DNA of 64,000 bases from Angustibacter luteus. GTDB taxonomy: Bacteria > Actinomycetota > Actinomycetes > Actinomycetales > Angustibacteraceae. The stretch's first letter is position 1. Each line of letters starts with the position of its first letter. The notes beneath the pieces were generated by a model. The model saw only the letters and a program-made list of their open reading frames with translations. It ran no database searches and was not told the origin of the DNA. This document shows positions 1 to 19,096 of the stretch, piece by piece. Where the stretch lies: contig NZ_BAABFP010000004.1 in NCBI RefSeq assembly GCF_039541115.1, positions 484,005-548,004 on the forward strand, written 5' to 3'. The translations under genes and the position numbers were made by a program.

Positions 1-25
1 GCGTCACCACCCGCCAACCTCCCCC

Positions 26-141
26 GTGATCATGCACGTTCGCCCCACCCCCCGCGGTGATCATGCACGTTCGCCCCGCCACCCTGGCGGTGATCATGCA
101 CGTTCGCCCCACCACCCCGCCGTGATCATGCACGTTCGCCC
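26..141 (+). repeat. Tandem array of four copies of short repeat family A
   Basis: Four near-identical copies of GTGATCATGCACGTTCGCC begin at 26, 57, 90 and 122, a period of 31-33 bases with short C-rich spacers. All four have the same orientation. The last copy ends 4 bases before the stop codon of the endonuclease-like gene that follows. Eight more copies occur elsewhere in the window. The spacers are only about 11 bases, so this is not a CRISPR array. It looks like a family of intergenic palindromic repeats; function unknown. Confidence 0.9.
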
Positions 142-1111: not shown

Positions 1112-1200
1112 GGGGCGAACGTGCATGATCACGGCGGGGGGGGCGGGGCGAACGTGCATGATCACGGCGGGGGGGGGGTGGGGCGAACGTGCATGATCAC
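1112..1200 (-). repeat. Three inverted copies of short repeat family A
   Basis: Copies at 1112-1132, 1145-1165 and 1180-1200 lie in the opposite orientation to those at 26-141. They are separated by G-rich spacers with runs of about eight and ten consecutive G. The last copy overlaps the final codon and stop of the VanA-like gene. With the first array they flank the endonuclease-like gene like inverted ends. Confidence 0.9.
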
Positions 1201-2210
1201 CGGGGGGTTTCGTCGGCGACCATCTGGCGCACGATCTTGCGCACCTGCAGCGCGGCAGCGTCGGCGCTGACGCTCACCGTGGGTCGCGGTCCGTCCCTGT
1301 CGAGCACGGCCTGCATGGTCTCCAGGATCGCCTGCACGCGCCGGTAGTACTGCTCGAACATCGGCCGCAGGGTCTGCTCCGCGTCCGGTTGGAGCGCGAA
1401 GTCCCGGCTGACCCGCCACAGGTGGCGCGTGTGGGTGGCGTCGATCGGCGTGAGGGCGTGGGTGAACCGGAAGGTGCAGGCGGGACCACCGCCGTCCTCG
1501 CCGGCCTCCCACCCGTCCACCCAGAGACCCGGAGTGACGAACTGCCCGAGCTCCCGCTGCCGGAACAGCGTGCCCGCCGGACGTCCCACCAGCTCGCTGT
1601 GCCAGGCGGTGAGCTCGGCCGGCGGGTAGTCGCGGGAGAACGACACACTCGTCTCGCTGACCTCGACGTCGAGCCGGGGCGGCGCTGAACGCAGGACCGG
1701 CGGGGCGAAGTCGGGGTCGACCACCGTGATGTGGCTGATGTCGGCGAAGTTCTCCTGCAGCAGGTCGATGGCCGCGTGGGTCTCCCACTGCGAGCCGAAG
1801 CTCGCCCAGGCCGGGTCGGCAAGCCACGGCACGGACGGCGCGGTGCGCAGTGAGGCTCGCGCCGGGTCGCCGAGCCACGCCCAGACGAAGGTGCCGTCGT
1901 CGTGCACCGGGAACGCCCGTACCCGCGCGCCGACCGGGATGCGGTCCTGGGTGGGCACTCGCACGCACGCCCCGGACGCGTCGTACGCGAAGCCCGTGTA
2001 GCCGGACACGATGGTGTCGCCGTCGACCCGGCCCAGGCTCAGCGGGTAGGGCCGGTGCGCGCAGCGGTCCTCCAGGGCGACGGCGCGCCCGTCGGAGACC
2101 CGGAAGAGGACGACGGCCTGGTCGACCGCGCGCCGACCGAGCGGAGTGCCGGTGACCTCGTCGGACGTCGCCGCGACGTACCAGCAGTTGCGGGGGTAGC
2201 TGCGGGACAT
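1197..2210 (-). CDS. VanA-like Rieske oxygenase family protein with altered metal ligands
   Basis: A 337-residue protein with the layout of vanillate O-demethylase oxygenase subunits: N-terminal Rieske-type domain (about 1-110), then a catalytic-type domain. The first Rieske pair is present (C50, H52 in EDRCAHRP). The second pair, normally C-x2-H in a CGYHG motif, reads S-G-Y-T-G (S69, T72). The mononuclear-iron motif D-x2-H-x4-H reads D157-x2-H160-x4-D165, so the second histidine is aspartate. I checked both substitutions against the nucleotides and the frame is intact. The protein may not bind a normal [2Fe-2S] cluster. It lies 27 bases downstream of a VanB-like reductase, probably in one transcript. 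Either a neofunctionalised or degenerate paralogue, or an under-described subfamily. Confidence 0.75.
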   Translation of the reverse strand: MSRSYPRNCWYVAATSDEVTGTPLGRRAVDQAVVLFRVSDGRAVALEDRCAHRPYPLSLGRVDGDTIVSGYTGFAYDASGACVRVPTQDRIPVGARVRAFPVHDDGTFVWAWLGDPARASLRTAPSVPWLADPAWASFGSQWETHAAIDLLQENFADISHITVVDPDFAPPVLRSAPPRLDVEVSETSVSFSRDYPPAELTAWHSELVGRPAGTLFRQRELGQFVTPGLWVDGWEAGEDGGGPACTFRFTHALTPIDATHTRHLWRVSRDFALQPDAEQTLRPMFEQYYRRVQAILETMQAVLDRDGPRPTVSVSADAAALQVRKIVRQMVADETPR

Positions 2211-2237: not shown

Positions 2238-3212
2238 TCAGAGGTCGAGGGTCAGTCGGGCGGAATGGCACCGCGAGACACAGATCATCATGAACTCGTT
2301 CGAGGCCTTCTCGTCGTCGTTGAGCACCGAGTCGCGGTGGTCGACGTCGCCGTCCACGACCTCGGTCTCGCAGGTGCCGCAGACGCCCTCCAGGCACGAC
2401 CCGAGCACGTTGGCGCCGGCCTCCTTGGCGACCTGGAAGACCGACTTGTCCGGCGGCACCTGCAGGGTCAGCCCGGACCGCTGGAGAACCAGCTCGAACG
2501 AGGAGTCCTCACCGGTCGCGCCTGGGTCGGATGCCTTGGGCGAGAAGCGTTCCAGGTGCAGGGAGCCCGGCGGCCACACCGTGCACCGCTCCTCGACGGC
2601 GGCCAGCAGTCCCTCCGGCCCGCAGCAGTAGACGACGGTGTCCGGGCGCGGCGTACCCAGCCACTCGTCCAGGTCGAGGAAGCCGGTCTCGTCCTGCGGG
2701 GCCAGGGTGACGTGGTCGCCGTACGCCTCCAGCTCGCTCAGGAACGCCATCGACGCGCGCTCGCGACCGCCGTACAGCAGGGACCACTGGGCACCGGCGG
2801 CGTGCACCTCGGCGATCATCGGCAACAGCGGCGTGATGCCGATCCCGCCGGCCACGAACAGGTACGCCGGGGAGGCCACCAGCGGGAAGTGGTTGCGCGG
2901 CCCGCGCACCCGGACCGTCCGTCCGGGCGCCAGCTGCTCGTGCACGTACGTCGACCCGCCGCGGCTGGCCGGTGCCCGCAGGACGCCGACCCGCCAGCTC
3001 GCTGCGTCGATCGGGTTGCCGCACAAGGAGTACTGCCGGGTGAGGTCGTCGTCGAGCAGCAGGTCGATGTGCGCCCCCGGCGTCCAGGCTGGCAGCGCCT
3101 CGCCACGCGTCGCCGTCAGCGTCAGCGACACCACGTCGGCGGCCACCACCTCGGCATCGCGCACGATCAGGTCGGCCTCGAACTCCTTGAGGGTCGTCCT
3201 GGTCTCGGTCAT
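2238..3212 (-). CDS. VanB-like PDR-type ferredoxin reductase
   Basis: A 324-residue single-chain reductase of the phthalate dioxygenase reductase family. A flavin-binding barrel carries RQYSL (59-63), an NAD-binding domain carries GGIGITPLLPM (122-132) and a CGPEG motif near 198, and a C-terminal plant-type [2Fe-2S] domain has C273, C278, C281 and C311. Such proteins pass electrons from NAD(P)H to a terminal oxygenase; here the expected partner is the VanA-like protein just downstream, or possibly another oxygenase since that partner has lost ligands. The P450 fusion further along has a very similar reductase-ferredoxin half. A perfect 18-base palindrome lies about 30 bases upstream of the ATG. 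Confidence 0.92.
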   Translation of the reverse strand: MTETRTTLKEFEADLIVRDAEVVAADVVSLTLTATRGEALPAWTPGAHIDLLLDDDLTRQYSLCGNPIDAASWRVGVLRAPASRGGSTYVHEQLAPGRTVRVRGPRNHFPLVASPAYLFVAGGIGITPLLPMIAEVHAAGAQWSLLYGGRERASMAFLSELEAYGDHVTLAPQDETGFLDLDEWLGTPRPDTVVYCCGPEGLLAAVEERCTVWPPGSLHLERFSPKASDPGATGEDSSFELVLQRSGLTLQVPPDKSVFQVAKEAGANVLGSCLEGVCGTCETEVVDGDVDHRDSVLNDDEKASNEFMMICVSRCHSARLTLDL

Positions 3213-3308: not shown

Positions 3309-3872
3309 TCAGCCGGCGTCGGCGCTGCCGCCGACGGAGGTCGCGGCGACCGGCACGGGCGGAGCACCGGCCGGGTCGATCTCCTCCAGCCGCAGCACGA
3401 CCTTGCGCAACGCGCGGGCCATGACCTTGAGCTCGTTGGCGGACAGGCCCGACGTCACGAACGCCTCCTGCTCGTTGAAGGCGGGGAACAGCTCCTCCAT
3501 CAGCCGCCGCCCCCGCGGGGTCAGCGAGAGCAGGACCCGCCGGGCGTCGTCCGGGTGCACCCGGCGCTTGAGCAGCCCGCGCTTCTCGAGCGTGGTCGAG
3601 ACGCCGGTCAGGGTGCCCTTGGAGATGCCGGCCTCGGCGGCCACGTGCCGGGTCTCGACGTCCTTCCAGACCCACACGACCCACAGCACGACCCAGCCCG
3701 TCCAGGTCAGGTCGTGCGGGGCCAGGACCGTGCGCTCCAGGTGGTTGCGCACGGCCCCGGCCGCTCGGTAGATGTTCCCGACCCCGGCCATCGCGGCCAT
3801 GTCGATCGGCAGACTTCCCAGCTGCTCCTCGATCGCGCGCTCGGTCTCATGGAGGGTGTGCTGTCCGGCCAT
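3309..3872 (-). CDS. MarR-family transcriptional regulator
   Basis: A 187-residue winged-helix regulator. The HTH region holds AAEAGISKGTLTGVSTTLEK and is followed by the wing RRVHPDDARRVLLSLTPRG, both typical of MarR proteins. I chose the ATG at 3872 because a GGGGAGG sits 8 bases upstream; the longer open frame would overlap the upstream permease gene. The stop of the permease is 50 bases away, so the two are probably cotranscribed. MarR proteins usually repress catabolic or efflux genes and respond to small aromatic or similar ligands. Likely binder of the TCGTTCG-N4-CGAACGA palindromes in this island. Confidence 0.88.
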   Translation of the reverse strand: MAGQHTLHETERAIEEQLGSLPIDMAAMAGVGNIYRAAGAVRNHLERTVLAPHDLTWTGWVVLWVVWVWKDVETRHVAAEAGISKGTLTGVSTTLEKRGLLKRRVHPDDARRVLLSLTPRGRRLMEELFPAFNEQEAFVTSGLSANELKVMARALRKVVLRLEEIDPAGAPPVPVAATSVGGSADAG

Positions 3873-3922
3873 GGCCACATCCTCCCCGAACCGCGGGTCC
3901 GGCGCTGGGGCGGGCATCCCCG

Positions 3923-5410
3923 CTACAGCCGGACCGGGCCCTGCTCGGACTCGGTCAGCTCCCCGAACTGGGTGCTGGCCGGGGCTCGTCCGGGCATCAC
4001 CCACGTCAGCGCGAGGCCGACGACGAACACGCCGAGTGCGGCATAGGGCGCGTAGATCGTCGGTGCCGTGACCTTGTAGACCGAGCCGAACATCGCGGCC
4101 AGGGTGATCACGATGCCCACGACCGCCGCGAGGTACAGCAGCGCCCGCTTGGGCGTGTCGGACAGGCCGCGCAGGGCGCCGATCGACATCAGGAAGTAGA
4201 TCGTGGCCAGCGCGAACCCACCGAAGGTGGAGGCCCAGTAGAAGATCGACGCGTAGTGCGGGGTCTCGGGGAGGGCGAACAGGGCGGTCCAGAACTTCGT
4301 CACCAGGATGACCAGCAGGCCGAAGGCCAGGACGAAGGTGCTGGCCACCAACGGCGTGCCGCGGCCAGACACCTTGCCCAGCACGCTCGGCAGCCGGCGG
4401 TCGCGACCCATGGCGAAGAAGCCGCGCGAGGCGGCGACGGCCGTCCCGATGAGCACGGCGAGCATGTCGAGGACGACGACGAGCTCCATCAGGCGGCGCA
4501 GGGCCACCGAGCCGTAGCCGCCCTCCGCGGCCGGGCCGGCGAGCCCGAACAGCGGCGCGCCCGCGTTCTTGCCCAGTGCCTCGAGGTCGAAGTGGTAGCC
4601 GGCCACCGTGGCGTACGAGCCGATCACGTAGAACCCGGCGACCGCCATCACGGAGAACAGCACGGCCCGCGGGATGTCGCGCTTCGGGTGCTCGGTCTCC
4701 TCGGCGAGGTTCGCGGACGTCTCGAACCCGGTGAACAGCAGCACGCCGTAGAGCACGCCGAACAGGATGCCGTTCCAGCCCTGCGGGGACGAGCTGGGCT
4801 TGAAGGCGGTGGCCACGCTGTTGTCGCTACCGACCTTGATGATCACGTAGATGAAGAAGATCAGGACGACGGTGATCGACACCAGCGCCAGGGTGAGCTG
4901 GGCGCGGGTCGACAGGGCCACGCCGAGGTAGAGCACCCCGGCCAGGATGGCGAGCAGCAGCAGGTCCCAGACCGTCTCCGGCAGGTAGGAGTGCCCGAAC
5001 TCGGCGAGCAGCGTGTCGTGGATCGTGCCGCCGATGAGCACCAGGAGGCCGGTGCTCAGCACGAGGATGCCGCAGTAGTAGAGCAGTCCGGACGCGACGC
5101 CGAGGCGTCCCCCGAGACCGTCGGTCACGTAGTCGTAGAGCGATCCGGCCGCCTGGATCTTGCGGGTGTACTGCGCCACGATCCAGCCGAGCGCGAGCAC
5201 GCCCACGGCGGCGATCAGCACGGAGAGCGGGGCGGCGTTGCCGCCGCCCTTGCCGGTCGCCGAGATGATGCCCACCAACAGGGGCACCAGGAACGCGATC
5301 GAGAAGACCGGTCCCATGAACCCGATCGACTGGGCGACCGCGTCGATGATGGTCAGCTTGCGGCCGCTGCCCCCCAACCGCTGGTAGTCGCCGTGATCCT
5401 CTTGCGCCAT
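3923..5410 (-). CDS. APC-family amino acid/amine permease
   Basis: A 495-residue membrane protein with about 12 hydrophobic segments and the N-terminal IDAVAQSIGFMGPVFS and GWIVAQYTRKIQAAGSLYDYV regions of APC-superfamily permeases. Start chosen at the ATG preceded by GAGGAG; an upstream extension would run through the operator-like region. Likely imports the amine or amino-acid substrate of the surrounding catabolic genes by proton symport or exchange. Followed after 50 bases by the MarR regulator. A second, distinct APC permease lies at 10921-12450, also paired with a regulator. Confidence 0.88.
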   Translation of the reverse strand: MAQEDHGDYQRLGGSGRKLTIIDAVAQSIGFMGPVFSIAFLVPLLVGIISATGKGGGNAAPLSVLIAAVGVLALGWIVAQYTRKIQAAGSLYDYVTDGLGGRLGVASGLLYYCGILVLSTGLLVLIGGTIHDTLLAEFGHSYLPETVWDLLLLAILAGVLYLGVALSTRAQLTLALVSITVVLIFFIYVIIKVGSDNSVATAFKPSSSPQGWNGILFGVLYGVLLFTGFETSANLAEETEHPKRDIPRAVLFSVMAVAGFYVIGSYATVAGYHFDLEALGKNAGAPLFGLAGPAAEGGYGSVALRRLMELVVVLDMLAVLIGTAVAASRGFFAMGRDRRLPSVLGKVSGRGTPLVASTFVLAFGLLVILVTKFWTALFALPETPHYASIFYWASTFGGFALATIYFLMSIGALRGLSDTPKRALLYLAAVVGIVITLAAMFGSVYKVTAPTIYAPYAALGVFVVGLALTWVMPGRAPASTQFGELTESEQGPVRL

Positions 5411-5555: not shown

Positions 5556-6404
5556 TCAGCCGTCGCGAGCGGACAGCCGGAAGTCGAAGGCCACCGTGCC
5601 GGCGTCCACCAGCGTGGTGCCGCCGTCCACGGTGAGCACCGCGCCGTTCACGTAGGACGCCTGCGGGCCCAGCAGCCACAGCACGGCCGCGGCCACCTCC
5701 GCGGGGAGGGCCGGACGTCGTTGCGGCACGAGCGTCGTCACCTGCTCGTACGCCGCCGCCCGATCCAGGCCGGCGCCCTCGCCGAACTCCCGCATCTCCT
5801 CGTCCGCCATCTCGGTGCGCACCCAGCCGGGGCAGACCACGTTGGCCCGCACGCCCACCGGCCCGAAGTCGACGGCGATGCTCTGCACCAGCATGGTGAG
5901 GGCGGCCTTCGAGGTGGCATAGGCCGCGGCGCCGGCGGAGGCCCGTAGCGCCGCGATCGACGAGACGCCGACCAGTGAACCGCCGACGTCCCGCAGGTGC
6001 GGCAGGGCGGCCCGTGCGAGCAGGTACGCCGAGGTGAGGTTGCCGCGGATCACCTCGTCCCACTCGGCCGGCCCGGTGTCCAGGATCGTGCCGGACCGCA
6101 TGACGCCGGCGTTCAGCACCACGTGGTCGAGCCGGCCGTACCGGACGACGACGTCCGCGACCAGCCGCTCGACGTCCCCGGGAACGCTCACGTCCGCCAC
6201 GACGGGGACCACCTCGCCGGGCAGACCCGCCGTCCGTGCCTGGGCCGCAACGACGTCCAGCGGCTGGGCGCGACGTCCGCAGACGACCACCCGGTGCCCG
6301 AGCGCAGCGGCGGCGGTGGCGACGGCGGCGCCGATCCCCGTCCCGGCACCGCTGACGAGCGTCACGGGAGCTGCCGTGCCACCGTTCCCGCTGGGCGCGC
6401 TCAC
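5556..6404 (-). CDS. Short-chain dehydrogenase/reductase
   Basis: A 282-residue classical SDR. Cofactor motif SGAGTGIG (18-25), LNAG (97-100), catalytic N122, S148/S149, Y162 and K166 in YATSK are all visible. The GTG start overlaps the stop of the LLM-flavin gene in a GTGA, indicating translational coupling. SDRs oxidise an alcohol or reduce a carbonyl using NAD(P)(H); the substrate is unknown but is presumably a hydroxylated intermediate of the island pathway. Confidence 0.92.
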   Translation of the reverse strand: MSAPSGNGGTAAPVTLVSGAGTGIGAAVATAAAALGHRVVVCGRRAQPLDVVAAQARTAGLPGEVVPVVADVSVPGDVERLVADVVVRYGRLDHVVLNAGVMRSGTILDTGPAEWDEVIRGNLTSAYLLARAALPHLRDVGGSLVGVSSIAALRASAGAAAYATSKAALTMLVQSIAVDFGPVGVRANVVCPGWVRTEMADEEMREFGEGAGLDRAAAYEQVTTLVPQRRPALPAEVAAAVLWLLGPQASYVNGAVLTVDGGTTLVDAGTVAFDFRLSARDG

Positions 6405-7336
6405 GACGAGATCACCTCCACCTTGCGGACGAGCTCACGGCAGAACGGACCCAGCTCGTCAGGGTCGTCGATGAACATCGACGGCTTGAAGCAGATGGTC
6501 GTGTAGCCCTGGGCCAGCTGGGCCGGCAGCGACTCGAGCGCCTGGTCGAGGTCGGCCGTGCCGTCGGGGGAGTCGAACCGGCCACGGATGCCGCCGACGA
6601 GCTCCAGCTCGCCCGGGTCACGCCCGGCCGCCGTCATGGCGAGCCCGACCTTCTCGAGGTCGTCCTGCGTCAGCGGACCGAACGGGTTCACCCCGTGGCC
6701 GTACCGCACGATCCGGCGCAGCAGCGCCGGGTGCATGCCCTGGCCTCCGAACCACATCGTCGGGCCCTGTGGCCGCCACGGCCGCGGCTCGAGCCACACG
6801 TCGTCGAAGTCGAAGTACTCGCCGTGGTGGGTGGCCGGCCCTGGCGACCACGCGGCCCGCAGGGCTGCGAGCTGCTCGTCCAGGATCCGGCCCCGCTGGT
6901 CGAACGGGACGCCGAGAGCGGCGTACTCGTCCCGGTGCCAGCTGACGGTCGGCAGGACGACGAGCCGACCCTCGGACAGCACGTCGAGCGTCGCCAGCTC
7001 GTTGGCCAGCAGCAGCGGGTGGCGCAGCGGAGCGATGACGGCACCGGCGACCAACCGCAGTGCGGTCGTCGCCTGGGCGATGGCGCCGAGCAGCACCAGC
7101 GAGCTCGGCCAGGGGGTCGCCGGGTCCTGGTTGCCGGGCGCGGCGTACTCGCGGGGGTTGCCCATCACGCCGTTCTCGCCGGCCGAGCGGCCGAGCACGA
7201 CGTGCTCGCTGAGCATGACGCCGTCGATCCCGGCCTGCTCGGCGTCAGCCGCCATCTGCACGAGTCGCCGCAGGTCGCGTGGGCCGACCATCGTCCAGTT
7301 CTCGGACAGGACGAGCAACAGCCTGGGGGTCGGCAC
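6401..7336 (-). CDS. LLM-class (luciferase-like) flavin-dependent oxidoreductase
   Basis: A 311-residue TIM-barrel enzyme of the luciferase-like family, with a family-like N-terminus (LLLVLSENWTMVGPRDLRR), LRLVAGAVIAPLRHPLLLA and a C-terminal GYTTICFKPSMFIDD. Family members use FMN or F420 as cofactor and include monooxygenases and dehydrogenases; which applies here cannot be told from sequence alone. The start is GTG with GAGG about 8 bases upstream. An 18-base palindrome sits just before the gene, which probably begins a transcript with the SDR gene. Confidence 0.85.
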   Translation of the reverse strand: MPTPRLLLVLSENWTMVGPRDLRRLVQMAADAEQAGIDGVMLSEHVVLGRSAGENGVMGNPREYAAPGNQDPATPWPSSLVLLGAIAQATTALRLVAGAVIAPLRHPLLLANELATLDVLSEGRLVVLPTVSWHRDEYAALGVPFDQRGRILDEQLAALRAAWSPGPATHHGEYFDFDDVWLEPRPWRPQGPTMWFGGQGMHPALLRRIVRYGHGVNPFGPLTQDDLEKVGLAMTAAGRDPGELELVGGIRGRFDSPDGTADLDQALESLPAQLAQGYTTICFKPSMFIDDPDELGPFCRELVRKVEVISS

Positions 7337-8058: not shown

Positions 8059-10248
8059 TCACAGGTCCAGGACGAGTGGTTCCGACGACGCCGCGCGCGA
8101 GACGCAGATCATCATCCGCTCGTTGGCACGTCGTTGACGGGGGGTCAGGAGGACGTCGCGGTGGTCCACGGCGCCGCCCAGCACGCGGGTCTCGCAGGTG
8201 CCGCAGTTGCCCTCGCGGCACACGTTGGGGATCGGCAGCCCCTTCTCCTCCAGGACGTCGAGGATGGTCCGGTCGGCGGGCACGTCCAGGGTCAGGCCCG
8301 TGCGCGACAGGGTGACCTGGAACGGCCCGTCGTCCTCACGGTGCGCCTCGCCCGCCGCGAACCGCTCGACCACCAGGGGGAGCCCGGTGCTCTCGGCGTG
8401 CTGCTCGAGGGCGCTCACCATGCGTTCCGGGCCGCAGGCGTGCATGGTGGCGCCGGCCCCCAGGGCCTGCGTGGCGAGCTGCTCCAGGTCGGCTCGCGAC
8501 CCCTCGTCACCCACGTGCACGTGCACCCGGTCGCCGTACGTCGCGAGCTCCTCGAGGAACGCCATCCCGGTTCGGCGACGGCCGCAGTAGTCCAGCCGGA
8601 ACGGCGTTCCCTGCCGGTGCAGCTGACGCATCATCGGCAGCAGCGGAGTGATGCCGATCCCGCCGGCCACGAACCGGTGCTCGGCGGCTGCCGCGAGGGG
8701 GAAGGTGTTGCGCGGGCCACCCACCTGGACGTGCATGCCCGGGCGCAGCTGCTCGTGGACGAACGTCGAGACGCCGCGGCTGTCCGGCTCGCGCAGGACG
8801 GCGATCCGCCAGCTGGTGCGGTCCGCGGGGTCGGAGCACAGCGAGTAGTGGCCGGCGTGGTCGGCGACCACCCACAGGTCGAGGTGGGCGCCCGGCTCCC
8901 ACGGCGGCAGCTCCGCTCCGTCCGGGTCGACGAGCTCCACCGAGACCACGTCCTCGGCCTCGAGGCGCAGGGCCCGGACCTGCATCAGCCGGGTGTCGGA
9001 GTGGCCGGCCTCGACCACCGGCGTGCGCAGGGACACGACGGGCCGCTCGCCCGGCGGATCCCACTGCACGGGAAGGGACTTGGGGGCTCGGAAGACCCAA
9101 CCGGTGACCCGTTCCGGCTGCCGGGGGTCGGCCCGCAGCCCCGGCAGGGCCGCCAGCAGCTCCTCGAACATGATGCGCTGCACCTGCCGGGCGAAGAAGT
9201 GGCCGGCGCAGAAGTGCTCGCCGTTCCCGAAGGCCTGGTGGGTGCGGCTGCTGCGGTCCAGGTCGAAGACGTCGGGGTCGTCGAAGCGGGTCTCGTCCCG
9301 GTTCGCCGAGCCCAGGATGGTCATCACGATGTCGCCCGCGGGGATCTGGACCCCGGCGATCGTGACGTCGGCGCTCGCCTGCCGCTCGACCGCCCCGATC
9401 GGGGCGATCCAGCGCAGGCCCTCGTGCACCGCCAACGGGATGTAGGCCTCGGGGTCCGCGTAGGTGAGGGCGAGCTGGTCCGGCCGGGAGAACAGGCCGT
9501 GCAGGGTGCTGCCCGCAGCGTGGCCGGGCTCCTGCATCCCGCCGAGCAGGATCACCTTGAGCGAGGGCAGGATCAGCTCGAGGGAGCGCGGCTCACCGTC
9601 CTCGCGCCCGGTCCAGATCATGTGCGAGAGCATCGAGTGGTCGGGGTGCCGGCGCAGGTGCTCCAGGTGCGGTCGGACGACGGACTCGATCTCGGCGCTG
9701 GCCCGGTCGGCGACGGCGAAGCTCTCGGGGTCCAGGCCGAAGTTGGAGACCCCGAGGTTGAGGTCGGCGAACCAGCGGCGGAGCGTCGCGGCGTCCACCA
9801 GCCCCTCCAGGCCCATCACCTGCCGCAGCGCCTCGACGCTGACCGGCTCGAAGTACGCGGACATCAGCTCCGCCTCGGTGCGGCCGGCCAGCTCGGCCAG
9901 GTAGTGCTTGGCGACGGGTCGCACCAGGGCGTCGATCATCTGGTGCACGGGCCCGGGCTGCAGGGGCGGGTCGACGCCGCGGCGCAGGTCCGCGTGCTCC
10001 TCGCCGCCCGAGGTGAGGACGTTGGGGGCGCCGAACACCCGCTGCAGGGTGGGGTGGCTGGTGGCCCCGGCGAAGCCGTGCTTTCCGGTGCCGATCTCGG
10101 CGCACTCCTCGAACCGGGTGGCGAACCAGACGCCGGCGGCCGGGATCCACGCGACGGGCGCCTCCCGGCGCAGCCGGGCGTACGTCGGATAGGGGTCGTC
10201 CTCGAGCTGCTCGAGGGTGATCTCCGTCAGGAAAGCCGTGTCCGCCAT
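8059..10248 (-). CDS. Self-sufficient cytochrome P450 fused to PDR-type reductase and ferredoxin
   Basis: A 729-residue fusion with the domain order P450 (1-395), flavin/NAD reductase (about 420-635), plant-type [2Fe-2S] ferredoxin (about 643-729), as in CYP116B/P450RhF enzymes. The heme-binding motif is FGNGEHFCAG with C347; ExxR is E276-R279. The I-helix reads GGMQEPG (236-242), with proline where the usual threonine is expected. The reductase has GGIGITPLLPM and a CGPE motif; ferredoxin cysteines are C677, C682, C685 and C715. Expected to hydroxylate or dealkylate a small substrate with NAD(P)H and O2 without separate redox partners. In the island it is the best candidate for oxidising a free or gamma-glutamylated amine. 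Confidence 0.93.
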   Translation of the reverse strand: MADTAFLTEITLEQLEDDPYPTYARLRREAPVAWIPAAGVWFATRFEECAEIGTGKHGFAGATSHPTLQRVFGAPNVLTSGGEEHADLRRGVDPPLQPGPVHQMIDALVRPVAKHYLAELAGRTEAELMSAYFEPVSVEALRQVMGLEGLVDAATLRRWFADLNLGVSNFGLDPESFAVADRASAEIESVVRPHLEHLRRHPDHSMLSHMIWTGREDGEPRSLELILPSLKVILLGGMQEPGHAAGSTLHGLFSRPDQLALTYADPEAYIPLAVHEGLRWIAPIGAVERQASADVTIAGVQIPAGDIVMTILGSANRDETRFDDPDVFDLDRSSRTHQAFGNGEHFCAGHFFARQVQRIMFEELLAALPGLRADPRQPERVTGWVFRAPKSLPVQWDPPGERPVVSLRTPVVEAGHSDTRLMQVRALRLEAEDVVSVELVDPDGAELPPWEPGAHLDLWVVADHAGHYSLCSDPADRTSWRIAVLREPDSRGVSTFVHEQLRPGMHVQVGGPRNTFPLAAAAEHRFVAGGIGITPLLPMMRQLHRQGTPFRLDYCGRRRTGMAFLEELATYGDRVHVHVGDEGSRADLEQLATQALGAGATMHACGPERMVSALEQHAESTGLPLVVERFAAGEAHREDDGPFQVTLSRTGLTLDVPADRTILDVLEEKGLPIPNVCREGNCGTCETRVLGGAVDHRDVLLTPRQRRANERMMICVSRAASSEPLVLDL

Positions 10249-10286
10249 CGTTGGTCCCTTCGCCGACGGCCACTATAACAGGGCGG

Positions 10287-10310
10287 TCGTTCGATTTATC
10301 GGAACACTCG
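10287..10310. promoter_or_regulatory. Partial operator half-site upstream of the P450 gene
   Basis: TCGTTCG at 10287-10293 exactly matches one arm of the 18-base island palindrome. The opposite arm is poor (CGGAACA after a 6-base AT-rich centre). It lies about 40 bases upstream of the P450 start. May be a weak binding site for the same regulator. Confidence 0.35.
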
Positions 10311-10319
10311 ACGGCGACC

Positions 10320-10886
10320 TCAGGCGTCCCGGTCGGGGTAGAGGGCGACGACCCAGACGGCGGCCGGCTTGCCCTTGACCGCCTGCCAGACATGCGGTCC
10401 GTCGGCGGGGTAGGTGGCGTAGTCGCCGGCCGAGACCACGGCGCTGGACTCCTCCGGCCCGAGCCGGGCGCTGCCGCTCACCACCAGGACGTGCTCGCGG
10501 GCCCCCGGTCCGTGGCCGGCCGACACCTCCGAGTGCCCGCGCTTCAAGGTCAGCGAGTGGAACTCCAGGAGCGAGGCCTGGACGGTCGTCGACTGCACCA
10601 GGAACCCGGCGATCGCGTCGTCGGAGATGTCGGTGCCGGAACCGCGTGGCACGACGAGCACTTCCCGGCTGGCTGCCGCGGCGGTGATCAGCTCCGGCAC
10701 GGACGACGACAGCGCCCCGCCCAGTGCGGTCAACGTCCCCAGCGTCGGGTTGGCCGAGCCGGCCTCGATCTGCGACAGCGTCGACTTGGCGACCCCGGAG
10801 CGGGCGGACAGCTGCGCCAGGCTCAGACCTCGAGCCTGGCGCAGCCGCTTGATGTTGTCGGCGACGTTCGCCGTCAAGTCGTCCAT
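10320..10886 (-). CDS. XRE-family regulator with cupin domain (PuuR-like), copy 1
   Basis: A 188-residue protein: N-terminal XRE helix-turn-helix (about 5-65; GLSLAQLSARSGVAKSTLSQ) and C-terminal cupin (about 100-185) with GAREHVLVVSG and GDYATYPADGPHVW. This is the architecture of PuuR, the repressor of gamma-glutamyl-putrescine degradation, where the cupin senses the ligand. The gene follows an APC permease by 34 bases on the same strand. A paralogue with the same cupin signatures lies at 13990. Together they suggest two related regulators for one catabolic island. Confidence 0.9.
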   Translation of the reverse strand: MDDLTANVADNIKRLRQARGLSLAQLSARSGVAKSTLSQIEAGSANPTLGTLTALGGALSSSVPELITAAAASREVLVVPRGSGTDISDDAIAGFLVQSTTVQASLLEFHSLTLKRGHSEVSAGHGPGAREHVLVVSGSARLGPEESSAVVSAGDYATYPADGPHVWQAVKGKPAAVWVVALYPDRDA

Positions 10887-10920
10887 GGGCCGTGAGTATG
10901 GCCCAGGTGGGGGCGAGTCC

Positions 10921-12450
10921 CTAGCCCACGGCCTCCGTCGGGCGCTCGCCGACGGCCGTGCCGTCGTCCGAGCGGTTGCGGCCCATCTGGGCGTACATCT
11001 GCGGCGCGACGGACTTCAACCGCAGGGCGGCGCCGAGCCCGACGACCGCCGCGACGACGATCAGGGCGGGCAGGATCCACCGCAGGGAGCTCTCCGGGTT
11101 GCCGAGCAGCAGGCCGAACTTGGCCGCCGCGTAGACCGCGACCAGCCCCATGCCGATCCCGCCGATCGCCGGTGCGATCACGGTGCGCCACAGGTTCGAG
11201 TCGAGGCCACGGTTGGCCGCGAAGAAGGCGATCACCGCGAAGGACGACAGCGACATCAGCACGAGGATGGCCAGCGTGCCGAGGTTCGTCAGCCAGGTGA
11301 ACAGCTCCAGCACCGGGTCCTTGTCGGCCAGGACGAACACCAGCACCACGACGAACGCCAGCGTGGTCTGCGCCAGGGACCCCACGTGCGGGCTCTGGTG
11401 CTTGGGGTGGGTGCGGCCCAGCACGCTGGGGACCAGGCCCTCGCGCCCCAGGGCGAACAGGTAGCGGGCCACGGCGTTGTGGAACGCGAGCAGCGCGGCG
11501 AACACGCTGGAGACGAAGAGCAGGGACATGAGGGTGGTCAGGCTCGAGCCCATGTAGGTGTCGCCGAGGACGAACAGGAACGCGGTGGGGTCGGGCTTGA
11601 GCCCGCCCAGGAAGTCCTGCAGCCCCACGGCACCCTGGCCGTTGACCATCAGCCACGTGGTCACGGTGTAGAAGAGGCCGATCGTCAGCACGGCGACGTA
11701 CGTGGCGCGCGGCACCGTGCGCTTGGGGTCCTTGGCCTCCTCGCTGTACAGCGTGGTGGCCTCGAACCCGATGAAGGCGGCGAAGTTGAACAGCAGCGCG
11801 ATGGTGATCGAGCCGGAGGTGAAGCTGTCCCAGCTGAAGGGGCTCAACGAGATGCCGGACTTGCCGCCTTCGCCACCCTTGACCAGGATCATCAGGTCGA
11901 GGATCAGCACGATCAGGAACTCGAGCGTCACCAGGACGACGAGCACCTTGACCGACAGGTCGACCTGCCGGTAGCCGCAGAGCCCGACGATCGCCATGGC
12001 GATGAAGACGTAGACGTACCAGGCCATGTCGATGCCGAGGTGGTCGCTGGCGAAGCCCGCTGCCGCGGCGCCGAACAGGCCGTAGAGACCGATCGACATG
12101 CAGTTGTAGCCGAGCACCGCGATGATCGCGGACGCGCCGCCCGTCGGCTGCTTGAGGCCGCGGGTGATGTAGCTGTAGAACGCGCCGGTGCTGGTGTGGT
12201 GACGAGCCATCGTGGTGTAGCCGACGGAGAAGATCAGGAGCAGGACGCTGACCACGACGTAGGCCGCGGGGATGCCGGCGCCGTTGCCGTAGAGCATCGC
12301 GACGGGCGCCCCGCCGGCCATGGCGGTGAGCGGGGCGGCGGCGGAGACGACGAAGAACGCGATGCCCAGGACGCCGAGCGTCCCTCGTCGCAGCTTCTGC
12401 GAGTCCCTCTTCTCGATCTCACCCTGGGCCGAACTGGACTGGTGACTCAT
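10921..12450 (-). CDS. APC-family amino acid/amine permease, second copy
   Basis: A 509-residue membrane protein with about 12 predicted hydrophobic spans. RRGTLGVLGIAFFVVSAAAP, ARHHTSTGAFYSYITRGL and GFEATTLYSEEAKDPKRTVPRA fit APC-family permeases. It is clearly different from the permease at 3923. AAGGAG precedes the ATG by 6 bases. Probably cotranscribed with the cupin-XRE regulator, matching the puuP-puuR logic of amine uptake and control. Substrate unknown; an amine or amino acid is likely. Confidence 0.9.
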   Translation of the reverse strand: MSHQSSSAQGEIEKRDSQKLRRGTLGVLGIAFFVVSAAAPLTAMAGGAPVAMLYGNGAGIPAAYVVVSVLLLIFSVGYTTMARHHTSTGAFYSYITRGLKQPTGGASAIIAVLGYNCMSIGLYGLFGAAAAGFASDHLGIDMAWYVYVFIAMAIVGLCGYRQVDLSVKVLVVLVTLEFLIVLILDLMILVKGGEGGKSGISLSPFSWDSFTSGSITIALLFNFAAFIGFEATTLYSEEAKDPKRTVPRATYVAVLTIGLFYTVTTWLMVNGQGAVGLQDFLGGLKPDPTAFLFVLGDTYMGSSLTTLMSLLFVSSVFAALLAFHNAVARYLFALGREGLVPSVLGRTHPKHQSPHVGSLAQTTLAFVVVLVFVLADKDPVLELFTWLTNLGTLAILVLMSLSSFAVIAFFAANRGLDSNLWRTVIAPAIGGIGMGLVAVYAAAKFGLLLGNPESSLRWILPALIVVAAVVGLGAALRLKSVAPQMYAQMGRNRSDDGTAVGERPTEAVG

Positions 12451-12524
12451 GTGGGCTCCTTGGAGGCTCCGCCAGAGGGTCCGGCGGCCGACACTGCTGG
12501 ATCTTTCACGACGACGACTGTATA

Positions 12525-12534
12525 TTTCGCGAAA
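12525..12534. promoter_or_regulatory. Palindrome in the divergent permease/VOC promoter region
   Basis: TTTCGCGAAA, preceded by an AT-rich TGTATA, lies between the divergent starts at 12450 and 12610. It is one of the few AT-rich spots nearby. A possible operator for one of the cupin-XRE regulators; inference from position only. Confidence 0.4.
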
Positions 12535-12609
12535 CGCAGCGATCGGTCAAGAGGTTCGGCCCAAGTGGTTCTTGCGGCGGCCCCGATCGACCACAGACGA
12601 GGAGCGGGC

Positions 12610-13218
12610 ATGATCGACGAGGACGTCCTGCCGGGCAGGAAGCTTGCAGTGAGCCACTTCGGGCTGAGTTGTCTGGACTTCCCCCTGATGCTCGACTTCT
12701 ACACCCGGGTGCTCGGACTGACCCAGAGCGACGGTGGCGAGATCGAGTCCGGCGGGGGCACCGACCTGGCGTTCCTCACGACGGACCCGCGCGAGCACCA
12801 CCAGCTCGTGCTGGCGTCCGGCCGCCGCGACCAGGTGGTCGAGACCAGCTCGGTGGTCGGCGGCAGCATCGGGTCGAACGTCTTCCAGGTGTCGTTCCGG
12901 GTCCGCGACCTCGACACGCTGCGCGGCATCACCCGCCGCCTCGCCGAGGCGGGTCGTACCGACCAGAACGCGATCAGCCACGGCAACGCGTGGTCGCTGT
13001 ACGTGCGTGACCCCGAGGGCAACGCGCTCGAGTTCTTCGTCGACGCGCCGTGGTACGTCGCCCAGCCCTGCGCTGAGCCGCTGGACCTGTCCAAGTCGGA
13101 CGAGGACATCCTCGCCGAGACCTCCGCCTACTGCCTGGCCCAGCCCGAGGTGCTGCCCTACGAGGAGTGGGTGCGCCAGACCGGCGAGAAGATCGTCGCC
13201 GACCAGGCGAAGCTGTAA
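12610..13218 (+). CDS. VOC-superfamily protein, extradiol-dioxygenase-like
   Basis: A 202-residue protein with two VOC half-modules. SHFGLSCLDFPLMLDFYTRVLGL opens the first, HHQLVL supplies a second candidate metal histidine and EGNALEFFVD a candidate glutamate, the H-H-E set of type I extradiol dioxygenases and other VOC enzymes. The length is shorter than classical two-domain BphC enzymes. A GGAG precedes the ATG. The aldolase starts 4 bases after its stop. It may cleave a ring or act on a non-aromatic intermediate; the neighbouring HpaI-type aldolase and FAH-family enzyme favour a ring-cleavage route. Confidence 0.85.
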   Translation: MIDEDVLPGRKLAVSHFGLSCLDFPLMLDFYTRVLGLTQSDGGEIESGGGTDLAFLTTDPREHHQLVLASGRRDQVVETSSVVGGSIGSNVFQVSFRVRDLDTLRGITRRLAEAGRTDQNAISHGNAWSLYVRDPEGNALEFFVDAPWYVAQPCAEPLDLSKSDEDILAETSAYCLAQPEVLPYEEWVRQTGEKIVADQAKL

Positions 13219-13222
13219 CCGG

Positions 13223-13993
13223 GTGTCAGCGCAGGCGCGAGACGTCCGACCGGGTGCCCTGGCGCGCCGGCTCGGTGAGGAGCCGCCGCTCATCGGGACG
13301 TTCTCCATCCTGGACGACTCGGTCGCGGCGCAGTCGTTGGCCCGCAGCGGTTTCGACTTCGTGCTCGTCGACCTCCAGCACGGCCTGTCCGACCTGAGCC
13401 GGATGGTCCCGCTGCTGCAGGGCATCGAGGCTGGCGGAGCGATCCCGCTGGTGCGCGTGCCGTCGCTGTCGCCGACCGAGATCGGCACGGCGCTGGATCG
13501 CGGCGCGCACGGGGTCGTCGTCCCCATGATCGAGTCGTCGGCCCAGGCGGCGGCCAGTGTCGCCGCGTGCCGGTACCCACCCGCGGGCGAGCGCAGCTAC
13601 GGCCCGTACCTGGTGCGCACCGACGGCTTCTCGGACGCCGCCCCGCCGCCGTGCTTCGTGATGGTCGAGTCGGCCGCGGCGCTGGCCGCGATCGACGAGA
13701 TCGTCGCGGTGCCAGGGCTGTTCGGCGTCTACGTGGGCCCCTCCGACCTGGCGATCAGCCTCGGTCTGGGCGCCGACTACGACGTCGCCGATCCTCGGCA
13801 CGACGACGCGGTCGCCGCGATCGGGACGGCGTGCCGGAGCGCCGGGGTGGTCAGTGCCATCCACACGTCGAGCGCGGCGGAGGCGCAGCACCGGATCGCG
13901 CAGGGGTTCACGATGGTCAGCGTTCGCAGCGACCTGGCCCTGCTCGGTTCCGCGGGCACGGTCCTCCTCGCCAGCACTACGCTGCATCCGTGA
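13223..13993 (+). CDS. HpaI/HpcH-family class II aldolase
   Basis: A 256-residue protein with the metal and catalytic residues of HpaI/GarL-type aldolases: H53 in VDLQHG, E149 in FVMVES and D175 in GPSDLAIS, plus AGERSYGP. These enzymes split 4-hydroxy-2-oxo acids to pyruvate (or a related oxoacid) and an aldehyde. The GTG start lies just after the VOC stop and the end overlaps the next GTG in GTGA, so VOC, aldolase and regulator form a tight operon. The likely role is the last carbon-carbon cleavage of the island pathway, feeding an aldehyde to the downstream dehydrogenase. Confidence 0.9.
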   Translation: MSAQARDVRPGALARRLGEEPPLIGTFSILDDSVAAQSLARSGFDFVLVDLQHGLSDLSRMVPLLQGIEAGGAIPLVRVPSLSPTEIGTALDRGAHGVVVPMIESSAQAAASVAACRYPPAGERSYGPYLVRTDGFSDAAPPPCFVMVESAAALAAIDEIVAVPGLFGVYVGPSDLAISLGLGADYDVADPRHDDAVAAIGTACRSAGVVSAIHTSSAAEAQHRIAQGFTMVSVRSDLALLGSAGTVLLASTTLHP

Positions 13994-14565
13994 CGGACCT
14001 CGGGGCGACGCTGGCGGCGAACGTGCGAGCGCTGCGGGAGTCCGCAGGCATCTCGCTGAGCCAGCTCGCCGAGCGCTCGGGGGTCGCCAAGGCGACGTTG
14101 TTCAAGGTCGAGCGCCAGCACACCAACCCGACCCTGGACACGATGGTCGCGATCGCGGACGCCCTGGGGGTCACCACGACCGCCCTGCTCGAGCAGCCGG
14201 CGGACAACGAGCTCGAGATCGTCCGGGCCGGTGAGGGCGTCGACATCTCCGACTTCGCGTCGAAGGGCCAGATCCTGAAGTCGATGGTCGTCGGCTCGGT
14301 GCTCGTGGAGATCCATCACCAGGTGTTCAGCCCGGGCATGGCCGAGACGTCCGCCTCGCACGGACCGCTGGCCCGCGAGCACGTCTTCGTCCGGTCGGGC
14401 TCCATCGAGGTCGGCCCCATCGGCTCGGCCGGGGTGCTGAAGCCGGGCGACTACGCGACCTATCCGGCCGACCGCACCCACCGGTGGACCGTCGTGGGGC
14501 AGCGCAAGGCGGAGGTCTGGATCGTGCACACGTTCGCCCGGGGGCAGCGCGACGTCCCGCAGTGA
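13990..14565 (+). CDS. XRE-family regulator with cupin domain (PuuR-like), copy 2
   Basis: A 191-residue paralogue of the regulator at 10320. The HTH contains ISLSQLAERSGVAKATLFKV and the cupin contains HGPLAREHVFVRSG and GDYATYPADRTHRW, nearly the same signatures as copy 1. The GTG start overlaps the aldolase stop by four bases. Probably controls this plus-strand operon or shares targets with copy 1; the two may bind different ligands, since the regions between the shared motifs differ. Confidence 0.9.
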   Translation: MTDLGATLAANVRALRESAGISLSQLAERSGVAKATLFKVERQHTNPTLDTMVAIADALGVTTTALLEQPADNELEIVRAGEGVDISDFASKGQILKSMVVGSVLVEIHHQVFSPGMAETSASHGPLAREHVFVRSGSIEVGPIGSAGVLKPGDYATYPADRTHRWTVVGQRKAEVWIVHTFARGQRDVPQ

Positions 14566-14592
14566 CCTCCCGAGGGCATTGCGCTACCATCC

Positions 14593-14618
14593 AAAATCAT
14601 TCGGGACCGAATGGATTT
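14593..14618. promoter_or_regulatory. Putative operator palindrome upstream of the aldehyde dehydrogenase
   Basis: An extended imperfect palindrome centred on ATTCGGGACCGAAT, flanked by AAATC on the left and GGATTT on the right. Read as TCATTCG-N4-CGAATGG it keeps the 7-4-7 design of the sites at 3241 and 7351. It lies about 30-55 bases upstream of the ATG, in the gap between the second XRE regulator and the dehydrogenase. Confidence 0.6.
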
Positions 14619-14647
14619 GTCGCGTCCCCCAGCGTGAGGAGCAGGAC

Positions 14648-16159
14648 ATGCCTGGCGTCCAGACCGACGTGGTCGCGACCACCGACTGGCCCGAGCGCGC
14701 GGCGTCCCTCGAGTTTCCCGCCGGCCTCTTCGTGGGCGGCGAGGTGCGGACCGCGGTGGACGGCCGGGTTCGCACGATCACGTCGGCCCGCGACGGCCGA
14801 CCGCTCGGCGACCTCGCCTGGGCGGCCGCGGCGGACGCCGACGCGGCGGTCGCGGCCGCTCGCGCCGCGTTCGACCACGGACCGTGGCCGCGGATGCACC
14901 CCCGCGACCGCGGGCTGGTCCTGAACCGCTGGGCGGACCTGGTGGAGGAGCACCGCGCAGACATCGCCCTGCTGGTCACGCTCGAGATGGGCAAGCCGAT
15001 CCGGCACTCGCACGACATCGAGCTGCGGGCGCTCATCTCCTGCCTGCGCTACTACGGCGGCCTGGCGGACAAGGGCTCCGGCGAGGTCACCCCCACCACC
15101 GCGGGCGAGCTGGCGCTGGTCACCCGCGAGCCGGCCGGCGTGGTCGCCGCGGTCGTCCCGTGGAACTTCCCGCTGACCCTCGGCGGCTGGAAGCTCGCGC
15201 CGGCCCTGGCCGCCGGCTGCACCGTGGTGCTCAAGACGGCCGAGCAGTCGCCGCTGTCGATGCAGCGCGTCGCCGAGCTCGGGGCGCAGGCCGGACTCCC
15301 CGCCGGCGCGTTCAACGTGGTCAGTGGCGACGGTGCGGTCGTCGGACGGCGCCTGGGCGAGCACCCGGACGTCGACGTGCTGACCTTCACCGGCTCGACC
15401 GCCGTCGGCCGGCACTTCCTGCGCTACGCGGCGGACAGCAACCTCAAGCGCGTGCACCTCGAGCTGGGCGGCAAGTCACCCAACATCATCCTGCCGGACG
15501 CGCCCGACCTGGACGCGGCGGCCGACACCGCCGCCTGGGCGATCTTCTTCAACAGCGGCGAGATGTGCACGGCCGGCTCGCGCCTCGTCGTGCACGCCGA
15601 CGTCGCCGACCAGGTCGTCGAGCGCATCGTGCAGACGGCGAAGGGCTGGTCCCCGGCGGACCCGCTGCTGGCCGACACCCGGATGGGACCGCTGGTCGAC
15701 CACCCCAGCCTCGAACGGGTGCTGGGCCACCTCGAACGAGGGGTGGCGCAGGGCGCGCAGGTCCGCTCCGGCGGCCGGCAGGCGCTCGCGGACTCCGGCG
15801 GCGCCTACCTGGAGCCGACCGTCGTCACCGGTGCCGGGCCGGAGAACACCCTGGTCCGGGACGAGGTCTTCGGCCCCGTGCTCGCCGTGCAGGTCGTGCG
15901 GGACGAGGCCGAGGCCGTGCAGGTGGCGGGCGACACCGCCTACGGGCTGGCGGCGGCCGTCTGGACGGCGGATCTCGGTGCGGCGCACCGGATCTCGCGC
16001 GCCCTGCGGGCCGGCACGGTCTGGGTGAACTGCTACGAGGAGGGGGACATGTCCGTCCCCTTCGGCGGCGTCAAGCTGTCCGGCTCCGGCCGGGACAAGT
16101 CCCGCCACGCGATGGACGAGTACACCGACCTGAAGACGACGTGGATCCGCTATGACTGA
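14648..16159 (+). CDS. Aldehyde dehydrogenase (PuuC-like role)
   Basis: A 503-residue NAD(P)-dependent aldehyde dehydrogenase. PWNFPL (171-176), FTGSTAVG (247-254), general base E272 in LELGGKSP and nucleophile C307 in NSGEMC are all present. GAGGAG precedes the chosen ATG; upstream codons would run into the operator. The next gene starts inside its last codons (8-base overlap). In Puu-type pathways the equivalent enzyme oxidises the gamma-glutamyl-amino-aldehyde; here the aldehyde could come from the P450 step or the aldolase. Confidence 0.94.
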   Translation: MPGVQTDVVATTDWPERAASLEFPAGLFVGGEVRTAVDGRVRTITSARDGRPLGDLAWAAAADADAAVAAARAAFDHGPWPRMHPRDRGLVLNRWADLVEEHRADIALLVTLEMGKPIRHSHDIELRALISCLRYYGGLADKGSGEVTPTTAGELALVTREPAGVVAAVVPWNFPLTLGGWKLAPALAAGCTVVLKTAEQSPLSMQRVAELGAQAGLPAGAFNVVSGDGAVVGRRLGEHPDVDVLTFTGSTAVGRHFLRYAADSNLKRVHLELGGKSPNIILPDAPDLDAAADTAAWAIFFNSGEMCTAGSRLVVHADVADQVVERIVQTAKGWSPADPLLADTRMGPLVDHPSLERVLGHLERGVAQGAQVRSGGRQALADSGGAYLEPTVVTGAGPENTLVRDEVFGPVLAVQVVRDEAEAVQVAGDTAYGLAAAVWTADLGAAHRISRALRAGTVWVNCYEEGDMSVPFGGVKLSGSGRDKSRHAMDEYTDLKTTWIRYD

Positions 16160-16913
16160 GCGGACCGGCGGCCGGCCCCTGGTCGTCATCCCGGCCCGCT
16201 ACTCCCAGAGCGCCTCTGCGCTGCGCTACCGGGCGGAGGTGGTCGCCCGGACGTTGGCCGAGGCCGTGTTCGAGGCCGGCGGCGAGCCGTTGGTCACCCA
16301 CCCGCACGCCCCCGGTGCCACGGTCGACGTGGACGCGGCCCGCGAGCGGCTGCGCTTCGCCGACGCGCTGCTGCTCCCCGGTGGCGGCGACGTCTCGGCG
16401 CGCTGGACCGCCACCGACGATCACCCGAGCCTGTACGACGTCGACGAGGGGCAGGACGCCTGGGACATCGCCCTGGCCCAGGCCGCCATGGCCGATGGGC
16501 TGCCGCTGCTGTCGATCTGCCGCGGGACGCAGATCGTCAACGTGGCCCTCGGGGGGACGCTCGTCGCCGACATGGCCGAGACCGTCGGCGACCACCGGCA
16601 CCGCACCCACCAGATCAAGGTCGCGGTGGACTCGCCGCTGGCCGCCGTCGTCGGCGAGCAGCCGACGATCTCGTGCTACCACCACCAGTGCCTGGACCAG
16701 CTGGCACCGGGGCTGCGCGCCGTGGCCTGGGCCGGCGACGGGGTCATCGAGGCGGTCGCGTCCGACGTCCTGACCGGCTGGTACGTCGGGGTGCAGTGGC
16801 ATCCGGAGGACTCTGCCGCAACGGATCCGGCCCAGGCGGCGATCTTCGCCGGACTCGTCCGCGCCGCGGCCGGCCGGCGGGACGCCGCGCCCCACGGCAG
16901 GGGTGAGCGATGA
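16152..16913 (+). CDS. Class I glutamine amidotransferase-like hydrolase (PuuD-like)
   Basis: A 253-residue protein of the gamma-glutamyl-GABA hydrolase family. LLLPGGGDVS, nucleophile C123 in SICRGTQ, and H217/E219 in GVQWHPED form the class I amidotransferase triad. In the Puu pathway PuuD removes the glutamyl group from the oxidised product. Overlaps the aldehyde dehydrogenase by 8 bases and the next amidotransferase by 4, so all three are translationally coupled. Confidence 0.9.
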   Translation: MTERTGGRPLVVIPARYSQSASALRYRAEVVARTLAEAVFEAGGEPLVTHPHAPGATVDVDAARERLRFADALLLPGGGDVSARWTATDDHPSLYDVDEGQDAWDIALAQAAMADGLPLLSICRGTQIVNVALGGTLVADMAETVGDHRHRTHQIKVAVDSPLAAVVGEQPTISCYHHQCLDQLAPGLRAVAWAGDGVIEAVASDVLTGWYVGVQWHPEDSAATDPAQAAIFAGLVRAAAGRRDAAPHGRGER

Positions 16914-17614
16914 AGGTCCTGTTCATCAAGCACGACCACCTCTCACCCGAGGGTGAGGTCGGCGCCCGGTTCGCCGAGCGCGGGTACACCGTGGTGGACC
17001 ACCTCGTGGTCCCGCCCGAGCACTTCGACACCCCGGACGTCGAGCCGCACTTCCCGGACCCGGCGGACTTCGACGTGATCGTGCCGCTCGGCGCCCCCTG
17101 GGCCGCGTACGACGACGCGCTCGTCGGCCGCTGGGTGCAGCCCGAGCTCGAGCTGCTCCGCTCGGCCCACGAGATCGGCGTCCCGGTCCTCGGAATCTGC
17201 TTCGGCGGGCAGCTGCTGGCGCTCGCCCACGGGGGAACCGTGGCCCGTGCGCCCGGGCCCGAGATCGGCTGGCACGACGTGCAGTCGGACGACGAGCAGG
17301 TCGTGCCGTCGGGGCCGTGGTTCCAGTGGCACTTCGACCGCTGGCGGCTCCCGGCGCAGGCGACGGAGGTCGCCCGCAACCCGGCGGCGTCCCAGGCCTT
17401 CGTGCTCGGCCGCAACCTCGCCGTGCAGTTCCACCCCGAGCTCGACTCCCGCACGCTCGGTGGCTGGCTGGGAAACGGCGGCGAGCGCCAGCTCGTCGAG
17501 CACGGGATCGACGCGGAAGCGTTGCTGCACACCACGCGTGGCCACGACGAGCGCAGCCGGCGCCGCGCGCACCAGGTCGTGGACGGCTTCCTGGACCAGG
17601 TGGCCACCCGCTGA
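16910..17614 (+). CDS. Second class I glutamine amidotransferase (GuaA-N/AtdA2-like)
   Basis: A 234-residue stand-alone class I amidotransferase with nucleophile C97 in GICFGGQ and H175/E177 in QFHPE. No synthetase domain is attached. Stand-alone proteins of this type accompany GS-like ligases in aromatic-amine clusters (AtdA2/TdnT next to AtdA1/TdnQ in aniline degraders), where hydrolysis of gamma-glutamyl amides has been proposed. Two different amidotransferases side by side may act on two gamma-glutamyl species, substrate and product. Confidence 0.85.
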   Translation: MKVLFIKHDHLSPEGEVGARFAERGYTVVDHLVVPPEHFDTPDVEPHFPDPADFDVIVPLGAPWAAYDDALVGRWVQPELELLRSAHEIGVPVLGICFGGQLLALAHGGTVARAPGPEIGWHDVQSDDEQVVPSGPWFQWHFDRWRLPAQATEVARNPAASQAFVLGRNLAVQFHPELDSRTLGGWLGNGGERQLVEHGIDAEALLHTTRGHDERSRRRAHQVVDGFLDQVATR

Positions 17615-17636
17615 CGGCCGGGCGCCGTTGACCGTC

Positions 17637-17697: not shown

Positions 17698-17738
17698 TCG
17701 ACGAGATGCGTCGCGCGCGTTCCGGCCCGGGGTGATGG

Positions 17739-19031: not shown

Positions 19032-19096
19032 CCTCGCGCTCCTGCTGGCCTGAGCTCCGCACCACCACCCCGATCGACACCAAGGAGAGACACCCC

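Follow-up and report, generated by a model that had tools for sequence, protein, structure and literature searches.

Background

Two metal centres are the hallmark of Rieske oxygenases. A 64,000-nt stretch of Angustibacter luteus DNA (NZ_BAABFP010000004.1; the window in what follows) carries at 1197-2210, on the minus strand, the gene of a VanA-family protein, here called VANA*, in which ligands of both centres are replaced. A preliminary description of the window proposed that such a protein could be a non-redox paralogue or a regulatory subunit, or could use a different metal. The locus thus raises the question of what a Rieske oxygenase homologue can do when the sites that define its family have been altered. 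Here we approach this question by comparing VANA* with its relatives, the genes around them and the structure of its closest solved homologue.

Results and discussion

Metal sites of VANA*

The reading frame of VANA* is uninterrupted from ATG to TGA and encodes 337 aa, in line with the fully open frame first described. Matches above the Pfam cut-off to Rieske (1e-16) and VanA_C (1e-24) give the protein the fold and domains of a VanA-type Rieske oxygenase, and its cognate reductase lies alongside. We compared its ligands with those of dicamba monooxygenase DdmC, the closest solved relative by sequence, and of 13 canonical VanA relatives, at positions established in the family as the metal ligands of DdmC. 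All sites below are on the minus strand.

The first Rieske ligand pair, C50-x-H52 (2055-2063), is kept. S69-G-Y-T72 (1995-2006) stands in place of the second pair, Cys-x2-His, with S69 encoded by TCC (2004-2006) and T72 by ACG (1995-1997), and the Cys-x-His...Cys-x2-His signature of the family accordingly reads C50, H52, S69, T72. At the iron site, the motif D157-x2-H160-x4-D165 (1716-1742) retains the bridging Asp, invariant in all groups compared, together with the first His, and has Asp (GAC, 1716-1718) for the second. The third ligand, Asp294 of the ED motif in DdmC, is V292 (GTG, 1335-1337), leaving H160, D165 and V292 instead of a 2-His-1-carboxylate triad. The three substitutions originally reported are therefore real, since S69, T72 and D165 occupy Cys, His and His positions of DdmC and canonical VanA, but V292 had been overlooked; four of the seven metal ligands are gone. 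Judged by these residues, VANA* can form neither a normal Rieske [2Fe-2S] cluster nor a catalytic iron site. Since neither centre can assemble normally, neither oxygenase activity nor electron transfer through a Rieske cluster is to be expected of it.

A P450-linked clade with drifting ligands

The preliminary description had suggested aligning homologues in search of a clade with altered ligands. A maximum-likelihood tree of 66 rows (VANA* and 65 relatives drawn from whole genomes and one genome-contig collection) places 52 of them in a single P450-linked clade (support 100/100) apart from canonical VanA. This clade consists of two sisters, the window clade of 19 rows (100/98) and another of 33 rows (99/92).

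Throughout the window clade, whose members come from several actinobacterial families and have open reading frames, H165 and the Asp ligand are lost. Among its 18 aligned members column 165 holds D in nine, A in eight and R in one, and column 292 holds V in 17 and M in one; column 160 is H or Q (Gln in seven). The Rieske columns drift as well: column 69 is C7/S6/A4/D1, column 72 is C7/T5/S5/H1, and C50 has become Asp in 5/18. Their entropies (1.77 bits at column 69 and 1.79 at column 72, against a mean of 1.25) are above average for the clade. By Rieske-site type, seven of the 19 rows are Cys3-His1, one is C/H/D/H, five are C/H/S-or-A/T and six are D/H/S/S; VANA* of A. luteus and the proteins closest to it have S/T, A/T or S/S as their second pair. 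Because relatives from several families are changed at the same sites, sequencing error, already thought unlikely at the outset, is ruled out as the cause of the VANA* substitutions.

The seven Cys3-His1 proteins (L003, L018-L021, L043 and L051), with the motifs CAH ... CGLC and no iron site, are candidates, by their residues, for an unusual [2Fe-2S] cluster. In the 33-row sister clade the Rieske ligands are kept in 32/33 and the iron site is altered, N154 having become His and H160 mostly Asn, Tyr or Asp. L025, which branches off first in this clade, has H154, H160, H165 and the Asp all present, as if intermediate. The sister clade possibly has a re-ligated iron site or relays electrons to a P450. 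Its members are L009, L010, L022-L026, L032, L042, L044-L050 and L052-L068, and their genes often directly follow P450-reductase fusions.

Putative partners of VANA* and the surrounding cluster

The adjoining reductase gene, RED (2238-3212, minus strand, 324 aa), lies 27 bp upstream of VANA* on the same strand, confirming the neighbourhood first reported; by Pfam its product is of the VanB/phthalate-dioxygenase-reductase type, with NAD-binding and plant-type Fer2 domains. We called genes around 39 clade members and control loci with our own codon-based script and assigned P450s and reductases from these calls and from Pfam on representatives. In 38 of the 39 clade loci we assigned a VanB-type reductase, usually the gene immediately upstream of VANA*. 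A P450 lies at most four genes away in 34/39 clade loci versus 1/14 canonical VanA loci (Fisher p 1e-7). Within the window clade, two genomes (G438 and G1085) have no P450 near VANA*; loss of the P450 is ruled out for both, as it was found elsewhere in the genome, and all 19 genomes have one. Three layouts occur: a run of P450, RED and VANA*; a fused P450-RED gene (product about 805 aa) with VANA* after it; and RED-VANA* facing a convergent P450. The putative partnership of VANA* with P450 and RED is seen as genomic linkage.

The partner P450 in A. luteus lies almost wholly outside the stretch available to the preliminary description, with only its last 29 bases (1-29, plus strand) inside the window and the remainder to the left (L108:12757-14034). 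Gene calling and comparison with the PDB describe a 425-aa, CYP125/CYP124-like protein, 75% identical to the P450s of relatives and with CYP125/CYP124 as its nearest PDB entries. The P450s of the clade have the heme Cys motif. Left of the P450 gene are a glutamine-synthetase (GS)-like gene and ADC-, HpaE-, HpaD(LigB)- and HpaG-like genes. On the other side, on the minus strand, a cluster-conserved MarR-type regulator (3309-3917) and an APC-type permease conserved in several relatives (3923-5410), both assigned to families from sequence and clustering, are followed by a luciferase-like (F420-type) oxidoreductase (6401-7336) that the comparison of loci found conserved in several relatives. The same comparison identified, at 16152-19948 on the plus strand, two class-I amidotransferase/gamma-glutamyl hydrolase-like genes, a GS-like ligase and an FAA hydrolase, a set of the gamma-glutamyl-amine catabolic type. 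With a GS-like ligase, a GAT-like gene, an oxygenase, a reductase and ring-cleavage genes all together, as in aniline-type gamma-glutamyl-amine clusters, the cluster is probably a gamma-glutamyl-amine catabolic one.

A second catabolic block (8059-20341) sits beside the VANA* cluster. It comprises XRE-cupin regulators, a permease, a glyoxalase-family protein, an HpcH/HpaI aldolase and an aldehyde dehydrogenase, along with gamma-glutamyl hydrolase-like genes, a GS-like ligase and an FAA hydrolase. At its edge (8059-10248, minus strand) is a 729-aa P450-reductase fusion whose I-helix reads GMQEPGH in place of the usual acid-alcohol pair and whose reductase half is 47% identical to RED; a related stand-alone P450 occurs in L079. 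This fusion was rejected as the usual partner of the clade, being a different type of P450, with the clade's own just left of the window.

The repeat unit GATCATGCACGTTCGCC is present in 12 copies in the window, where none is expected by chance, at 28-140, 1114-1198, 55498-55583 and 58129-58182, and is absent from every other genome's locus examined. Oppositely oriented arrays of GATCATGCACGTTCGCC flank a 304-aa REase_MTES_1575-like ORF (146-1060), which separates VANA* from the P450; the TGATCA within the repeat provides the stop codons of these two genes.

Fold and former substrate pocket

An AF2 model of the window protein alone, built from nine sequences, has a pLDDT of 85.9, and its best structural match is DdmC (3gke; Z 37.3, 332 residues, 2.2 A). 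The positions that form the substrate pocket of DdmC were taken from PMC10511449. We transferred them to VANA* by sequence alignment rather than from model coordinates. For two of the published contacts, His257 and Gly255, we used His251 and Gly249 of the DdmC chain sequence.

At these positions (1344-1604, minus strand) VANA* carries the clade-specific residues W203, W230, D232, W234, F249 and Y289, with D232 aligned to Asn230 of DdmC. W234 is found in 17 of 18 window-clade members and the other five are fixed in 18/18. The sister clade has another nearly fixed set (W203, H230, Q232, Y/W234 and R249), and canonical VanA proteins are variable here. The mean entropy of the eight DdmC pocket columns is 0.57 versus 1.30 for the catalytic domain (p 0.007 by random position sampling), a test whose positions came from published contacts, yet whose invariant residues had been noticed beforehand.

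Selection and gene loss

Omega values, estimated by the Nei-Gojobori method on GC-rich genes, are 0.13 for VANA*, 0.14 for RED, 0.15 for the P450 and 0.13 for GlnA in the close pair L070/L071, whose VANA* proteins have lost three of four Rieske ligands. In the subclade whose Rieske site is most eroded, omega for VANA* is 0.13-0.29, close to that of neighbouring genes. Over larger distances VANA* evolves faster than its neighbours, with 59% identity between the window and L071 compared with 71-82% for them. Within the window clade VANA* and P450 distances correlate at 0.95, a value that simple co-inheritance would also give. The combination of clade-wide loss of catalytic residues, a kept fold and purifying selection is that of a pseudoenzyme.

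The gene itself is missing from some genomes. Among 246 genomes of one family, 15 have the P450, and of these 11 have VANA* and four do not. In the latter (L128-L131) the P450 is beside GlnA-, ADC- or LigB-type genes, with RED nearby in 3/4. A hidden VANA* was sought in these four and rejected: two hold a canonical VanA (>70% identical to L027) away from the P450 cluster, and two gave only weak partial matches. On the P450 tree the absence amounts to two changes, nested among P450s that go with a VANA* lacking the normal Rieske site. P450 clusters lacking VANA* in four genomes indicate that it is not always needed. These genomes, with their P450/GS-like/ring-cleavage cluster, are natural controls for VANA* function.

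What VANA* may do

With most of its metal ligands lost, its fold and pocket kept and the same P450 present in all close relatives, usually next to the gene, VANA* has probably been retired as an enzyme and kept on to help the P450. More fully, we read it as a redox-dead pseudo-oxygenase of the VanA/DdmC type that persists as a non-redox accessory to a P450 and VanB-type reductase pair, with a probability of about 0.6. A kept frame and fold, selection and new pocket residues point to a function without metals. Of the readings first proposed, a non-redox or regulatory protein fits best because across the clade the ligands vary, yet fold, frame and pocket have been preserved. The word paralogue does not hold if it implies a working VanA beside it, as no second full-length VanA relative was found in the window genome.

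The strongest competing explanation makes VANA* a decaying relict: replaced in its role by the P450, it would be losing its ligands through neutral drift, with loss of the gene to follow. Rieske ligand columns among the more variable, a divergence faster than that of neighbour genes and a gene missing from four P450-cluster genomes, by two changes in the Rieske-less part of the P450 tree, are what such decay would leave behind. However, the clade's frames are open, omega in the most degraded subclade resembles that of the neighbours, the new residues at the old pocket are conserved and the gene has been kept across several actinobacterial families, so that we consider decay unlikely.

Readings that keep the protein redox-active fare worse. 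A modified Fe-S cluster or another metal might, for instance, pass electrons on from RED to the P450, and the Cys3-His1 set (C50, H52, C69, C72) in 7/7 members of the related subclade, with normal Rieske ligands in 32/33 sister-clade members, makes such a role plausible in those groups. That set is the sole conserved alternative, and it is confined to the related subclade; for the window protein, with its S/T pair and relatives in which even C50 gives way to Asp, no alternative ligand set is conserved. The different metal of the preliminary description is therefore unsupported there, and we hold it to be quite improbable. Less probable still, to the point of being hardly credible, is an oxygenase working with an unusual iron site of H160 and D165 and another electron donor: the window protein does retain H160, D165 and the bridging D157, but 9/18 clade members have Ala or Arg for D165, seven have Gln for H160 and every one has Val or Met as third ligand, and the ligands needed for the Rieske cluster, the would-be electron donor, are gone.

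As a helper of the P450, VANA* would probably act by binding a ligand. Electrons would pass from NADH through the flavin and the [2Fe-2S] cluster of RED directly to the P450 heme, and VANA* may bind a pathway compound in its old pocket, dock RED, or both. The remade pocket would present an aromatic set (W203, W230, W234, F249, Y289) and one acid, D232, and VANA* could be an effector, sensor or scaffold in the degradation of gamma-glutamyl amines, probably aromatic amines. An aromatic pocket with a single acid, in a cluster with a GS-like ligase, amidotransferases and a permease, suggests an amine or its gamma-glutamyl amide as ligand, which is a guess. In its most specific form, a Rieske oxygenase would have turned into a metal-free ligand-binding subunit whose aromatic cage and acid sense an amine (or gamma-glutamyl amine) or deliver it to a P450 using VANA*'s old reductase; this version we offer tentatively, as possible rather than probable. 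An ancestral P450-RED-VanA module may have lost the iron site first, the Rieske site next and, in some lineages, the gene itself.

Relation to known systems

VANA* shares with DdmC and VanA the full-length fold, the domain order, a VanB-type reductase next door, the first Rieske pair and the bridging Asp. Unlike them, it has lost 4/7 ligands, is linked to a P450 and has conserved aromatics with Asp232 in the pocket. P450s with a phthalate-dioxygenase-type reductase are known as fused (CYP116B-like) or two-component systems, and share with the present locus an NAD/flavin and plant-type [2Fe-2S] reductase, separate or fused. The literature searched holds no VanA-like third component for such systems, and the open-access part searched no description of a P450/VanA-like module or a pseudo-Rieske oxygenase.

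Oxygenase components without their own Rieske cluster have a precedent in NdmC of the caffeine N7-demethylase NdmCDE, a non-heme iron monooxygenase that works in a complex and is thought to be fed by an extra Rieske cluster on NdmD (PMC4408171). VANA* resembles it in lacking that cluster but has lost both sites, and RED shows only NAD-binding and Fer2 domains. In the aniline dioxygenases AtdA1-A5 and NpaA1-A5, a Rieske oxygenase and a reductase cooperate with a GS-like and a GAT-like enzyme (PMC11335346). The VANA* cluster likewise has a GS-like gamma-glutamyl ligase, a GAT-like enzyme, a Rieske-type component and a reductase; here, in contrast, oxygenation seems to fall to a P450, and the cluster's Rieske-type member is a metal-less protein of VanA type.

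Conclusions

The annotation 'vanillate demethylase' is likely wrong for the VANA* clade. Across several actinobacterial families, these proteins form a natural series in which both metal centres are dismantled, yet the fold, the link to the reductase and a remodelled pocket have been kept next to a P450. If VANA* is indeed a metal-free subunit, living relatives would preserve each step of the transition: an altered iron site, a Cys3-His1 Rieske site, no metal, and loss of the gene. The series lets us ask directly what use the scaffold of a redox enzyme has once its metals are gone, and whether a Rieske-type reductase can pass to a P450 that keeps the old oxygenase as a helper.
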